The notes under the pieces are model-generated. The model was not told the origin of the DNA. It made no database searches and was given only the letters and a program-made list of their open reading frames with translations. A program made the translations under genes and the position numbers. 64,000 nt of DNA from Candidatus Jordarchaeales archaeon (GTDB lineage: Archaea > Asgardarchaeota > Jordiarchaeia > Jordiarchaeales > Freyrarchaeaceae): assembly GCA_038889235.1 (NCBI GenBank), contig JAWAHN010000001.1, positions 846,852 to 910,851 of the forward strand, given 5' to 3'. Shown here one piece after another: positions 1,489 to 61,316 of the stretch; the stretch's first letter is position 1; the number at the start of each line of letters is the position of its first letter.

Positions 1489-1902
1489 TTATAAAATTTC
1501 TCCATCAATACATAGATGGCTTCTCTGCCTTAAGTAAATTACAGGAATCCCCGCCTTTCTGAGACGCTTGCGAAGAACATTGTCGTTGGTGGCAACGACG
1601 CAACGTTCCCTTCTGGCGTATTCAAGTATAGCATCATCTACACCCACACTCTCAACCCCTGACGGGCAGACCTTAAAAGCCTTCTGCCTGACGAAGTTTA
1701 AAGCTGCCTTGGCTAGTTTTCCCCCCTCGCTGCCCTTCTCAGCCAACTTTTCTAGCTCTTCTAGCACCTTATCTAGAACCACGACCTCGTAACTTCTACC
1801 AACGACAACGCCCAGTTCCGAGAAAAAATCCCTCCCGAACAGGAAGGGAGCTATTAAAAAGTTGCTGTCAACAACTATCTTAACGTATGAGCCCCCACCC
1901 AA
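1489..1902 (-). CDS. PIN-domain ribonuclease, Fcf1/Utp24-like
   Basis: Likely a metal-dependent RNase of the PIN fold, related to the archaeal Fcf1/Utp24 group implicated in rRNA processing. Acidic active-site candidates are visible in VVDSNFLI, in VLEELEKL, in GVDDAIL and in VVATNDNVLRKRL, which matches the usual PIN layout. The frame is open from an ATG at 1926, but a TTG at 1902 is preceded by GGTGGAGG at good spacing and puts the first beta strand at the expected place. I prefer the TTG. The gene overlaps the 3' end of the aIF2 gamma gene, so the two are translationally coupled or at least co-transcribed. Confidence 0.82.
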   Translation of the reverse strand: MGGGSYVKIVVDSNFLIAPFLFGRDFFSELGVVVGRSYEVVVLDKVLEELEKLAEKGSEGGKLAKAALNFVRQKAFKVCPSGVESVGVDDAILEYARRERCVVATNDNVLRKRLRKAGIPVIYLRQRSHLCIDGEIL

Positions 1903-3171
1903 TAAGCCTCCACCTTCCCGAAACAATGCGGCTTACAGCAACTCTTTGACCGTCCTCAGCGCACACAGGACGGCGTAGCTTAATTTCAACCTCGTCGCCC
2001 CTAACCGACGAAATGGTGCCTACGGTTACAGCCGACCCGACATTAAGCATCAGCGACTCGTTAACATGCACGTTCTCCACCTTTGCAAGCTCCTCGCTCC
2101 CCACAACTCTTTCCATTAAGTGAAGCTCGATGCACAAGTCATCGCGCACAGGTGGAAGCGTTCCGGGGGCTCCAACAACGTTTCCTATGAGACCATCAGC
2201 CTTCGTCAAAGACGGGTCAAGTTTTGTTCCAATACCGATCAAGCCTCCAGGCAGAGCCTCTTCAAGCCACACGTCACCCGCCTGCAAACTGACAACGTCG
2301 GCGTAGATGGGCTCAAATCCCCCCTTACCAGCAACCCCAGGACGTATTTCTATTTCGTCGCCAACTCTAACCTTGCCCTGAATTATTGTTCCGCCTATGA
2401 CTCCTCCAACAAGATCCTTCGGCTTAGTCCCTGGCTTGTTAACATCAAATGACCTAGCAATGTACATTCTCAGAGGCTTACTTGGGTCCCTGACAGGGTC
2501 AGGGATGTGTTTCTCCATGAAGTACAATAAAACGTCTAAGTTGACCCCTAAGACCGCTGAGACAGGGATGATGGGAGCGTCTTCAGCGAAAGTTCCACTA
2601 ATAAACTTCTTAATCTGTCTGAAGTTTTCCATCGCCTTCTCCCTTGAGACAAGCTCGACCTTGTTCTGAACGATAACAATGTTCTTCACACCAACGATTT
2701 CCAAGGCTGCAAAATGTTCCCGCGTCTGCGGTTGAGGACACGGCTCATTAGCAGCAATAACGAAAATGCAACCATCCATAAGTGACGCACCACTAATCAT
2801 AGTGGCCATAAGTCTCTCATGGCCAGGCGAGTCGACGAAACTAATCTTGCGCACAAACTCGGCTTCTCCTCCACACTTCGGGCACTTCCACCCTCCAGCC
2901 ATAGCCAGAGTGAAATAGTTACCAGGAGGGGGACAGGACGGGCACCTTAAAACAACAGCGTCAGCGTAACCCAGCTTAATTGTAACCCCACGGCGCTTTT
3001 CCTCACTATGACGCGCGGCCCAAATGCCCGTTAAAGCTTGTACAAGCGTGGTTTTTGGCCCGTGGAAACCTATCCCCACGGATTGCCATGATCAACGTCT
3101 CCGGCGCCAACTGTTCAGCAACAACTAGCGTGTCCGGCCGTTCCCACGGAAACCAAGGCCTGCGTAGTCAT
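1880..3171 (-). CDS. Translation initiation factor aIF2 gamma, interrupted by two BHB introns
   Basis: GTPase subunit of aIF2, which delivers initiator Met-tRNA to the small ribosomal subunit. Unspliced DNA from the ATG at 3171 reads MTTQALVSVGTAGH and then stops (TGA) inside intron 1. Removing 3099-3131 and 3054-3082 joins exons 3132-3171, 3083-3098 and 1880-3053. This gives a continuous 409-residue protein with a perfect P-loop, GTAGHVDHGKTTLVQALTG. Downstream are HSEEKRRGVTIKLGY (switch I), a four-Cys zinc knuckle, FVDSPGHERLM (G3) and VQNKVEL (G4). The spliced length is normal for the family. An in-frame TTG at 3195, preceded by GGGGG, is an alternative start. A GTG inside intron 2 could be mistaken for the start but would lack the P-loop. 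Confidence 0.93.
3054..3082 (-). other. Pre-mRNA intron 2 (29 nt, bulge-helix-bulge) in aIF2 gamma gene
   Basis: On the coding strand TGGC (3088-3085) pairs with GCCA (3059-3056) as the central helix. The bulges are AAT (3084-3082) and AAA (3055-3053), and the intron hairpin is CCGTGG/CCACGG with a ten-base loop. Cutting after the second base of each bulge joins GGCAA to AACCACG, giving G-K-T-T of the P-loop. The intron length (29) is not a multiple of three, so retention shifts the frame. I see no clear outer helix, so this is a relaxed form of the motif. Confidence 0.87.
3099..3131 (-). other. Pre-mRNA intron 1 (33 nt, bulge-helix-bulge) in aIF2 gamma gene
   Basis: Seen in the sequence: on the coding strand CCGG (3137-3134) pairs with CCGG (3104-3101) to form the four-base central helix. 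The three-base bulges are ACA (3133-3131) and AGA (3100-3098). Inside, an 11-bp helix (with G-U pairs) closes on a GCTG loop. An outer AACG/CGTT pairing is possible. Cutting each bulge after its second base, the rule for archaeal splicing endonuclease, joins GGAC to ACGTT and yields codons for G-H-V-D. The intron carries an in-frame TGA. It is not known from a database; this is a structure and reading-frame argument. Confidence 0.88.
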
Positions 3172-3195
3172 GGCTTTTTTACAAGCTTCACTCAA

Positions 3196-4611
3196 ACGAG
3201 AACCCCCTTAGGATTTTTTAAAAAATGTTTCCACGAAAACGCTATTTAAAAGTTTCCAGCAGAGCCCGACAAATGGGATGAAAGGCCAGCTCTTCCAGGG
3301 AGGTCTTTTGAGGAGTACCGTTAAACACGATTTTTAGCACCCGACAAGCACATAAAGACACAACAAAAATCGAGTATGAAGAGGACGGAACAATCATTCG
3401 TCGGCATAAGAAAATTAAGAAGAGCGGGACGAACTCTGCATAGGGATAGATAGCGGGTCAGAGAGATCGAGAAGCACAAAGTAAACGTGAAAGAGGCAGC
3501 TAAAGCATGCCCTCCACTAAACGAATATAGCCAAAAGTCGACGCAGCATTTACGTGTAAGGAACTGTTAAAGATAAGACTCTGGCCAGAAAACAGTGGTG
3601 TTAAGCCTAATGCCCGCATCAGAAACAACCCACATCGGAGGCAACAGGAAGAAAACGGAGACCTTATAACAACAGCTACTGGAACACCCCCTTCTATCTA
3701 AAAGGAAGACTATCTAAAGGAAGAGTGAGGAGCAAAAACGCAAAGGACGTTGAAATACAACATAGCATCTTCCAGTTAAACATAACTCTGCCGACGAAAT
3801 ACATTGTAGACAACGAGTGCAGCCAACTTGCCAGGAGGGTTGAAATGCTTACAGGACCACAGCCTCCAGTTTACGGTTCTGAGAGAAAGGCAAGAATGAA
3901 AGCGTTCTATAAGACAAAGGTAGAAAAGGATGAACGATTACCCCCCTAGGGGAAACTTGATCAAACCCGCTATGCTTCACTTCAGCCTTCAAACCCAGAT
4001 AACTGAAAAGTACTAAAGCGGGAAAACACAGCCGGGGAAGAATCAAGAAGGAAATTAGCACTCGGAAATGTAGCCGCTCCGATGATCATTAACTTCCTTG
4101 AATTTAAGCCTCCTTGAAGCAAAACTACACTCTTCAGAGAACATACAGACAGCGAAAAAGCATAAAACCGGAAGAATTGACCCCGCCTCAACACTCTAAC
4201 CAAACAAAAAAGGGGGGAAGAGGAGCTTCATCGACAAAATACCTTTGACAATATACAGACAATAAACGAAACTTGCCACATACTAAACGAAATGAAAAAT
4301 CGCAAAATGTCCATCTACCTTAACGACATAATAACAAACTCGAAGGACACAAGAGAATATCAATATCTAAAAGACAAAAAGAGGAGTGATATTGACTCCT
4401 ATCAACATGAACGAAAAACCAATAAAGTCTACAGGTACACTAGGACAGCTAAAACCAAATTCACAGCTAATATCACAAACACACTTGGCCAGTCATAGCA
4501 CGAAAAAACATAAAATCAAAAACTAAAGGCGACAACTACACAAAAAAGTCGAAAAAAATAAAAAACCAGACAAGTAGACAATCTTAGTAAACGTTTAAAG
4601 GAGGGTTTAAG
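3196..4611. other. Gene-poor, A-rich region of 1.4 kb
   Basis: No gene of recognisable family. The plus strand is rich in A and poor in T, especially in 4200-4570. Stretches that look faintly coding occur: around 3370-3440 a frame reading IEYEEDGTIIRRHKKIKK, and 3725-3949 a 74-codon frame ending KTKVEKDERLPP. Neither has a good start signal or resembles a family I know, so they may be remnants of a decayed gene. The last 60 bases hold the promoter and Shine-Dalgarno sequence of the EF-1A gene, with an A/T-rich box near 4552-4566 and AAAGGAGGG at 4596-4604. Confidence 0.5.
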
Positions 4612-40286: not shown

Positions 40287-40693
40287 GGCGGCGTGCCAGG
40301 AGTAACCCACCTTCTGTTGGGAGGACCGCCGTCGCCGGCGGCCTCCTGGCGGCATTCGGCTAAGCGCCCTACCCGCCGCCTCCCGTGGGCATCATCGGCA
40401 GCCTATTTGGGCTTTCAACCTCCGAGGCCGGCCGTTTCAACGATCCCACTTGCGTCCTCGGCGGGTTAACTCGGCGCTTGTTGCCAAGCGCCTTCTCGGG
40501 AGATTTCCCCCCCTCAGCCGCCTCATCGCCATATTGCAAGTGGACGTGTCGTTTGCAGCCTTACCAATGGTTTCTGCTCCGGAGCCGGGCCTCTCGGCCC
40601 GCGCCTCGCGGCGCTCGGATCCCACGGTGGTTGGGTGGAGTTTCCTCAGCGCCCTTTTCAGGCGCCGTGGGCCGCCCTCTGGCTCGCCGCCTC
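40285..40693 (-). ncRNA. rnpB: RNase P RNA, archaeal type
   Basis: RNA subunit of RNase P, which removes 5' leaders from tRNAs. On the minus strand the molecule is closed by P1 (GAGGCGGCG at the 5' end with CGCCGCCTC at the 3' end). Conserved core elements are present: GAGGAAACTCC near the 5' side, GAGCAGAAACC, GGGCGCTTAGCCGAATGC, and ACAGAAGGTGGGTTACTCC near the 3' side. It is strongly GC-rich compared with flanks, as expected for a structured RNA of a thermophile. Length is about 409 nt. It ends over the last codon of tsr3. Confidence 0.92.
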
Positions 40694-47137: not shown

Positions 47138-47344
47138 CTCCTTAAATAAACCCGAAAAAAATATATTCCCTCGCTATCCGAAACCTTTATTTGGAGGTTT
47201 TACACCTCCCTTATTTGCCTTGCTCAAAATGCAACCCAAGATGGCTTCACCGTCTTGGGTGAAGGGCGTAGTGAGGTAAAACCTCACGATGACTGCCGTG
47301 CACAGGACGCACACGCCAACCGGAAGCCCCAATTAAGGCCCAAC
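47138..47344 (+). promoter_or_regulatory. 23S rRNA promoter, leader and 5' processing strand
   Basis: AT-rich boxes (CTTAAATAAA near 47140, AAATATATT near 47158) precede a leader of hairpins: GGAGGT (47193-47198) with ACCTCC (47204-47209); CCCAAGA (47235-47241) with TCTTGGG (47253-47259); GTGAGGT (47271-47277) with ACCTCAC (47281-47287). From about 47298 the leader pairs with the 3' trailer (50412-50458) in a long stem: GTGCACAGGACGCA with TGCGTCCTGTGTAC, CGCC with GGCG, GAAGCCCC with GGGGCTTC, and AGGCCCAAC with GTTGGGCCT. Internal loops in this stem are the likely excision sites. Confidence 0.75.
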
Positions 47345-50411
<3,067 letters not shown>

Positions 50412-50520
50412 GTTGGGCCTGAAAGGGGCTTCTGGGCGAATTGTTGCGTCCTGTGTACGGCTTTCTTTGAATTGTTTGGGTTTTTGTGTTGTTTTTGTTT
50501 GTGTTTTTTTATTTTGTTTG
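50412..50520 (+). terminator. 23S rRNA trailer and T-rich terminator
   Basis: 50412-50458 is the 3' strand of the processing stem described for the leader. After it the plus strand becomes extremely T-rich with G (GTTTGGGTTTTTGTG, TTTTTGTTTG, GTTTTTTTATTTTG), a strong archaeal terminator. The T-rich composition continues through the next, oppositely oriented gene. Confidence 0.7.
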
Positions 50521-61226: not shown

Positions 61227-61316
61227 TGGAGCCGCCGGGGGGATTTGAACCCCCGACCCGCGGATTACAATTGCGGTCTTTGATGTCCGCCGCTCTGCCT
61301 GCTGAGCTACGGCGGC
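61227..61316 (-). tRNA. tRNA-Thr (TGT) with a 14-nt intron at 32/33
   Basis: On the minus strand: acceptor GCCGCCG with CGGCGGC, discriminator T and encoded CCA; D arm GCTC/GAGC with AGCAGGCA; T arm GGGGG-TTCAAAT-CCCCC. The anticodon loop becomes CTTGTAA (anticodon TGT, threonine) after removing 14 bases. It is convergent with the CAT tRNA, only 40 bases from it. No other odd features. Confidence 0.93.
61271..61284 (-). other. tRNA-Thr intron, position 32/33 (14 nt)
   Basis: Coding strand: GCGG of the anticodon stem pairs with CCGC in the intron as central helix. Bulges are ACA and AAT, and the inner element is TC-AAA-GA. Cuts after the second base of each bulge give the intron ATCAAAGACCGCAA. 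The position is non-canonical. Confidence 0.88.

Follow-up and report, generated by a model that had tools for sequence, protein, structure and literature searches.

Predicted bulge-helix-bulge introns in the initiation factor gene aIF2γ of an Asgard archaeon

The gene for initiation factor aIF2γ in a Candidatus Jordarchaeales archaeon lies on the minus strand at positions 1880–3195 of the window (the whole 64,000-nt stretch of contig JAWAHN010000001.1 that was analyzed), and its reading frame is interrupted twice within the GTP-binding loop. Sequence comparison indicates that the two inserts are almost certainly archaeal bulge-helix-bulge (BHB) introns in the pre-mRNA of this single-copy gene, as an earlier sequence-only reading had proposed. 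This interpretation is supported by the exact restoration of the motif GHVDHGKTT, the BHB geometry, compensating changes between relatives, presence and absence of the inserts (including an empty site in a relative), purifying selection, and the genes for the splicing endonuclease EndA and the ligase RtcB. Further support comes from introns in the same codon in a second Asgard family (f3), from a cbf5 intron at the crenarchaeal site, and from an intron in the eL42 gene.

Gene structure and geometry of the inserts

The predicted gene consists of three exons on the minus strand. Exon 1 (3132–3195) ends in GGCCGGAC. Its TTG start at 3195 is located 8 codons upstream of an alternative ATG at 3171 and is preceded by GGGGG; both the GGGGG and the TTG are conserved in two congeners (genomes G001 and G003). 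Exon 2 (3083–3098; ACGTTGATCATGGCAA) is only 16 nt long, as it is in G001, and encodes VDHG together with portions of the His22 and Lys27 codons. Exon 3 (1880–3053), which extends from Lys27 to the stop codon, is supported by a profile match and by dN/dS between congeners. A putative promoter, the BRE/TATA-like element GGAAAC-TTTTAAATA, is situated upstream of the gene (3243–3257, minus strand), and the same element is present in both congeners. Approximately 1.3 kb separate aIF2γ from the divergently transcribed EF-1α gene (3260–4600), with no convincing ORF and no Rfam match in this interval.

Intron 1 (33 nt, ACGCTAGTTGTTGCTGAACAGTTGGCGCCGGAG; 3131–3099, minus strand) splits the His22 codon as C|AC. 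Its central helix pairs 3134–3137 with 3101–3104 (CCGG/CCGG), flanked by the bulges ACA (3131–3133) and AGA (3098–3100), and the inner stem has 11 bp. Intron 2 (29 nt, TCCGTGGGGATAGGTTTCCACGGGCCAAA; 3082–3054, minus strand) splits the codon of the P-loop residue Lys27 as AA|A; here, 3085–3088 pair with 3056–3059 (TGGC/GCCA), the bulges are AAT (3082–3084) and AAA (3053–3055), and the inner stem has 9 bp. Thus, both introns have the 4-bp central helix and the 3-nt bulges at the exon-intron borders, and the lengths, helices, and bulges given by the sequence-only reading are correct to the base. Removal of both inserts at the canonical BHB cut sites, between bulge bases 2 and 3, yields GTAGHVDHGKTT and an intact, conserved aIF2γ, the joined sequence after cleavage past the second base of all bulges being GTAGHVDHGKTTLVQALTG, with no leftover base. 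The product reads MSEACKKAMTTQALVSVGTAGHVDHGKTTLVQALTG..., and the spliced protein matches the NCBIfam archaeal IF-2 gamma models with E-values of 4e-189 and 1e-185, which bears out the earlier claim of an exact rejoining. The protein length of 409 residues given at that time holds for the ATG at 3171, whereas the conserved upstream TTG at 3195 gives 417 aa. In the unspliced transcript, stop codons are encountered in the reading frames.

Among letter-shuffled versions of either insert, about 0.1% formed a central helix of 4 bp in a register that preserves the product together with an inner stem of 4 bp or more, and the stem lengths actually observed were never reached (0/200,000 for each insert). 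The lowest-energy fold of the 117-nt region contains both BHB elements together, closed by an outer CGTGG/CCACG helix; taken alone, the outer helix beside the bulge of intron 2 is weak. The bulk folding energy of the region is unremarkable (z = −1.66) and uninformative as evidence; the case for introns is carried by the specific geometry and the comparative data, of which the latter are the decisive evidence for the predicted introns. Self-splicing introns were rejected: group I and group II introns need a catalytic RNA core of hundreds of bases, the inserts comprise just 33 and 29 nt, and the window yields no such Rfam match.

Two explanations that dispense with splicing were weighed against these data. 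In programmed translational bypassing, exemplified by gene 60 of phage T4 and the byp elements of yeast mitochondria, the ribosome would hop over the inserts on an unspliced mRNA, and the inserts are indeed short hairpins with stop codons. However, GHVDHGKTT is not obtained from any identical pair of take-off and landing codons: intron 1 is best matched by GGA (33 nt), which produces GTAGDVDHG, and intron 2 by GGC (27 nt), which produces GHVDHGQKP in the wrong frame. As bypassing also leaves the BHB geometry, the covariation, and the cbf5 intron at a known spliced site unexplained, we regard it as highly improbable. Even less credible is internal initiation at GTG 3079, from which the ORF caller reports a 399-aa ORF; the introns would be irrelevant if the resulting N-truncated protein could function with no P-loop. 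The GHVDHGK P-loop that this product would lack is kept in all other intact aIF2γ genes examined, and the covariation within the BHB elements would again have no explanation.

Under the intron interpretation, the aIF2γ transcript would fold into two side-by-side BHB elements, each formed partly by exon and partly by intron. In the cell, the alpha-plus-beta tRNA-splicing endonuclease EndA would cut each element in both of its 3-nt bulges, past the second base, and RtcB would ligate the three exons, including the 16-nt middle one, rebuilding the GTP-binding loop; the introns would be freed, presumably as small circles. The unspliced mRNA would be expected to give no active factor. Location within codons of P-loop residues may favor intron persistence, since only exact loss leaves a working protein.

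Congeners and a second Asgard family

The host assembly (2.14 Mb in 8 contigs, 95% complete) belongs to the same genus as G001 and G003. Its nearest named relatives are the Candidatus Jordarchaeum MAGs JNZ_1113 and LHC_1308 of the Asgard class Jordarchaeia (PMC9723677), with 86% identity across aIF2γ; the aIF2γ regions of G001 and G003 are sequence-identical to those of these two MAGs. Both introns recur in G001, with lengths of 30 and 31 nt. G003 has intron 2 only (29 nt), and intron 1 is precisely absent, leaving an uninterrupted GGC CAT GTT GAT. The central helices show compensating changes: CCGG/CCGG in the host versus CTGG/CTAG in G001 for intron 1, and TGGC/GCCA in the host versus CGGT/GCCG in G003 for intron 2. 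The sequence-only reading had suggested a search for the same introns in related genomes, and they are present there with covarying stems. Besides the empty site for intron 1 in G003, most Asgard genes and all of the approximately 77 other archaeal genes inspected are uninterrupted at the P-loop.

The exons are under purifying selection, with dN of 0.07–0.09 versus dS of 0.9–2.3 for aIF2γ between congeners. A second intact aIF2γ gene, which according to the sequence-only reading would have spoken against introns, is not found in the 95%-complete assembly; the next-best match there reaches just 34% identity.

In the P-loop survey of aIF2γ, 228 Asgard genomes were searched and 215 had a P-loop match. 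A BHB intron of 29–30 nt in the same Lys27 codon was found in 18 genomes, all from the 65 genomes of family f3 (probably Lokiarchaeia). The predicted splice there is A|AG or A|AA, i.e., one base 5′ of the AA|A in Jordarchaeum. The central helix pairs ATGG with CCAT or CTAT and is complete in 15 of the 18 genomes; in the other three (G070, G097, and G107) just three of four pairs form in the best register. A related core (GTC-loop-GAC) recurs in most f3 introns, pointing to a common origin of these introns within the family; G097 and G107 differ in this respect.

Among the 14 distinct f3 introns, the central helix is 98% paired, and the covariation score is 0.233, compared with 0.133 after shuffling and 0.05–0.10 when the partner is slid. 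The exon half of the helix appears constrained as well: the ATGG strand requires CAT as the His codon, and this codon is used in 18/18 genes with an intron versus 10/36 intronless genes (p = 1.5e-7, kinship not corrected for). The outer helix formed between exons is also better paired in the intron-containing genes (p = 6e-4, likewise uncorrected for kinship).

A pseudogene or a sequencing or assembly artifact, i.e., a broken aIF2γ from which no functional protein is expressed, might be suspected because the genome is of the MAG type and two inserts that break the frame disrupt an essential motif. It does not account for homologous inserts in independent MAGs of congeners or for inserts in the same codon in the 18 genomes of f3, and the interrupted gene is the only aIF2γ of its genome, with the sequence downstream of the inserts under strong purifying selection. 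We therefore consider this explanation very unlikely and retain the intron interpretation.

The distribution of introns in f3 is patchy, with at least 12 state changes on a tree of 51 tips, and closely similar proteins differ in intron state (the pairs G082/G067, G124/G129, and G079/G008). A multicopy mobile element was rejected as the source: in six g22 genomes the intron core, allowing up to 3 mismatches, occurs once per genome, at aIF2γ, the single off-locus match being a weak one in G099 with 3 mismatches. Independent gain of the Jordarchaeum and f3 introns seems more likely than descent from one ancient intron, given that the registers differ and that the families in between lack introns.

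Three further candidates were excluded from the count. The interruption in G131 is a run of N, and G146 has an in-frame TAA with no insert. G129 has an intronless copy and a second, intron-bearing fragment (L174, G129:C165) whose contig is short, comes from a bin with 8% contamination, and is probably a contaminant. In many f3 aIF2γ proteins (L112–L118 and L164–L173), the N-terminus is extended by a stretch that includes a helix-hairpin-helix-like segment (KGIGKATA...).

Further candidate introns in the same genome

Two introns outside the window are also kept in relatives. The cbf5 gene (G000:C1:835691-836673) contains a 29-nt BHB intron at 835887–835915 (L276 1485–1513) that separates the first base of the catalytic Asp codon from the other two (GTL-G|AT-P). 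It is also found in both congeners, in G006 of the same order, and in the distant G028, and its site is exactly that given for the crenarchaeal cbf5 intron (PMC2738675); the sequence-only reading had used cbf5 as its comparison, and aptly so. Sharing of this site by two distant archaeal groups means either that it is ancient or that it is a strong hot spot for insertion or retention. The adjoining gene for eL42 (L44e) contains a 29-nt BHB intron in GSQP-K-PVQ (G000:C1:836938-836966; L276 2536–2564), with 30-nt counterparts in both congeners. Judged from match length and stops alone, eL42 is about 30 nt longer with in-frame stops in 4/4 genomes of the same order. The eL42 match is split in G199 (family f29) too. 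In the cbf5 gene of G051 (family f17; L280, G051:C1:1889112-1891553), an 856-codon open frame includes about 1.5 kb of inserted in-frame sequence, perhaps an intein.

A scan for BHB joins covered about 720 kb of stretches plus the window, i.e., about 784 kb or 37% of the genome. Four further introns, each seen in one genome, are predicted from restoration of a known active-site motif: in the gene for protein-L-isoaspartate methyltransferase (pcm; GGQTISAP^H; G000:C1:804315-804345, minus strand), in a radical SAM protein gene directly before CxxxCxxC (G000:C1:964013-964040, plus strand), in the gene for a [NiFe]-hydrogenase/complex I 49-kDa-type subunit (RVCGICSNA^H; G000:C1:549831-549889, minus strand), and in an Fe-S oxidoreductase gene (CGY^CVEECP; G000:C1:565583-565612, minus strand). 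Motif restoration is the basis here because the score fails to separate real joins from chance joins of ORFs: the maxima for control bulge lengths were 28–33, and the canonical bulges gave 36 and 34 in one of the two samples but 31 in the second. An initial scan of the window with no bulge preferences gave chance-like matches only. The candidate at G000:C1:975866 was rejected, as it joins two adjacent genes. A candidate join in a hexapeptide transferase gene is located at G000:C1:1035681-1035712.

In total, within about 37% of the genome, three genes with four introns are confirmed in relatives and four more introns are predicted. On this basis, we think it somewhat probable that very short mRNA introns, concentrated in active-site codons and removed by the tRNA-splicing machinery, occur genome-wide in Jordarchaeum and perhaps in other Asgard archaea, affecting perhaps ten to a few tens of genes. 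If so, this would be spliceosome-independent, protein-catalyzed pre-mRNA splicing at scale in a group of archaea related to eukaryotes.

The same distribution bears on a possible regulatory reason for intron retention, in which splicing efficiency would set the levels of aIF2γ, Cbf5, and eL42 and so link tRNA-splicing capacity to translation. The relative-confirmed introns of Jordarchaeum do sit in three translation or ribosome genes, and a role as a negative regulator has been proposed for the crenarchaeal cbf5 intron (PMC2738675). On the other hand, the patchiness among close relatives in f3 argues against an indispensable role, and the four further predicted introns are in unrelated genes, so that retention for regulation appears unlikely, though not implausible.

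Known systems and splicing machinery

A BHB intron in the cbf5 pre-mRNA is known from Desulfurococcales and Sulfolobales (Watanabe 2002; Yokobori 2009, PMC2738675). The introns described here resemble it in being short (16–44 bp in cbf5), in the cut between bulge bases 2 and 3, in splitting an active-site codon, in patchy loss among relatives, and in occurring in genomes with alpha/beta endonucleases. They differ in the gene, in the Asgard phylum, in the presence of two introns separated by a 16-nt exon, and in having canonical BHB elements, whereas those of cbf5 are mostly unconventional. In HVO_1309 of Haloferax volcanii (PMC7714728), a BHB element in mRNA is cut by EndA, as is predicted for aIF2γ, but that intron lies in the 5′ UTR of a euryarchaeal species and not in coding sequence. 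The Asgard archaea Atabeyarchaeia and Freyarchaeia are likewise rich in introns expected to be removed by the tRNA-splicing machinery; however, those are in tRNA genes and not in a protein gene (PMC11291895).

As of 2020, beside the HVO_1309 5′ UTR, cbf5 was the sole other archaeal mRNA reported with a BHB intron (PMC7714728). The earlier remark on the rarity of introns in archaeal protein genes needs qualifying for the Jordarchaeum lineage, in which more were found. We found no report of an aIF2γ intron, in keeping with the sequence-only reading, or of Asgard mRNA introns in the open literature (subscription papers and preprints being outside this search), and the word “intron” is absent from the main text of the Jordarchaeia paper (PMC9723677). 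As far as can be told, the mechanism is already known, and what is new is the gene, the lineage, the double intron with its 16-nt exon, and the number of genes.

BHB introns would thus be present in two Asgard families within the gene of a core initiation factor, as a pair in the host genome, which would have them in two or more additional genes as well. Essential Asgard genes of this kind will be truncated or broken by standard gene callers. The introns may provide a tractable system for studying how protein-spliced introns are gained and lost in mRNAs, as well as a point of comparison for the origin of splicing near the branch leading to eukaryotes, and their prediction is directly checkable in metatranscriptomes.

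The host genome encodes both the endonuclease and the ligase. Of its two PF01974 splicing endonuclease genes, one has the catalytic Tyr/His/Lys and the other lacks the His, which, as read from these residues, is an alpha-plus-beta arrangement; there is one RtcB gene. In TACK archaea, endonucleases of the alpha-plus-beta type tolerate a wider variety of BHB motifs (PMC7714728). Most of the 28 other Asgard genomes examined likewise contain two PF01974 genes. Only 16 tRNA genes were detected genome-wide (RF00005, E ≤ 0.01), several of them 85–166 nt long, which suggests that many tRNAs of the host are interrupted by introns, consistent with other Asgard archaea (PMC11291895).

The sole tRNA gene in the window (61230–61316, minus strand, 87 nt) has an anticodon unreadable by ARAGORN. 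The window also contains an archaeal 23S rRNA gene (47336–50420, plus strand) and an RNase P RNA gene (40291–40687, minus strand) that measures 397 nt versus 288 positions in the model.
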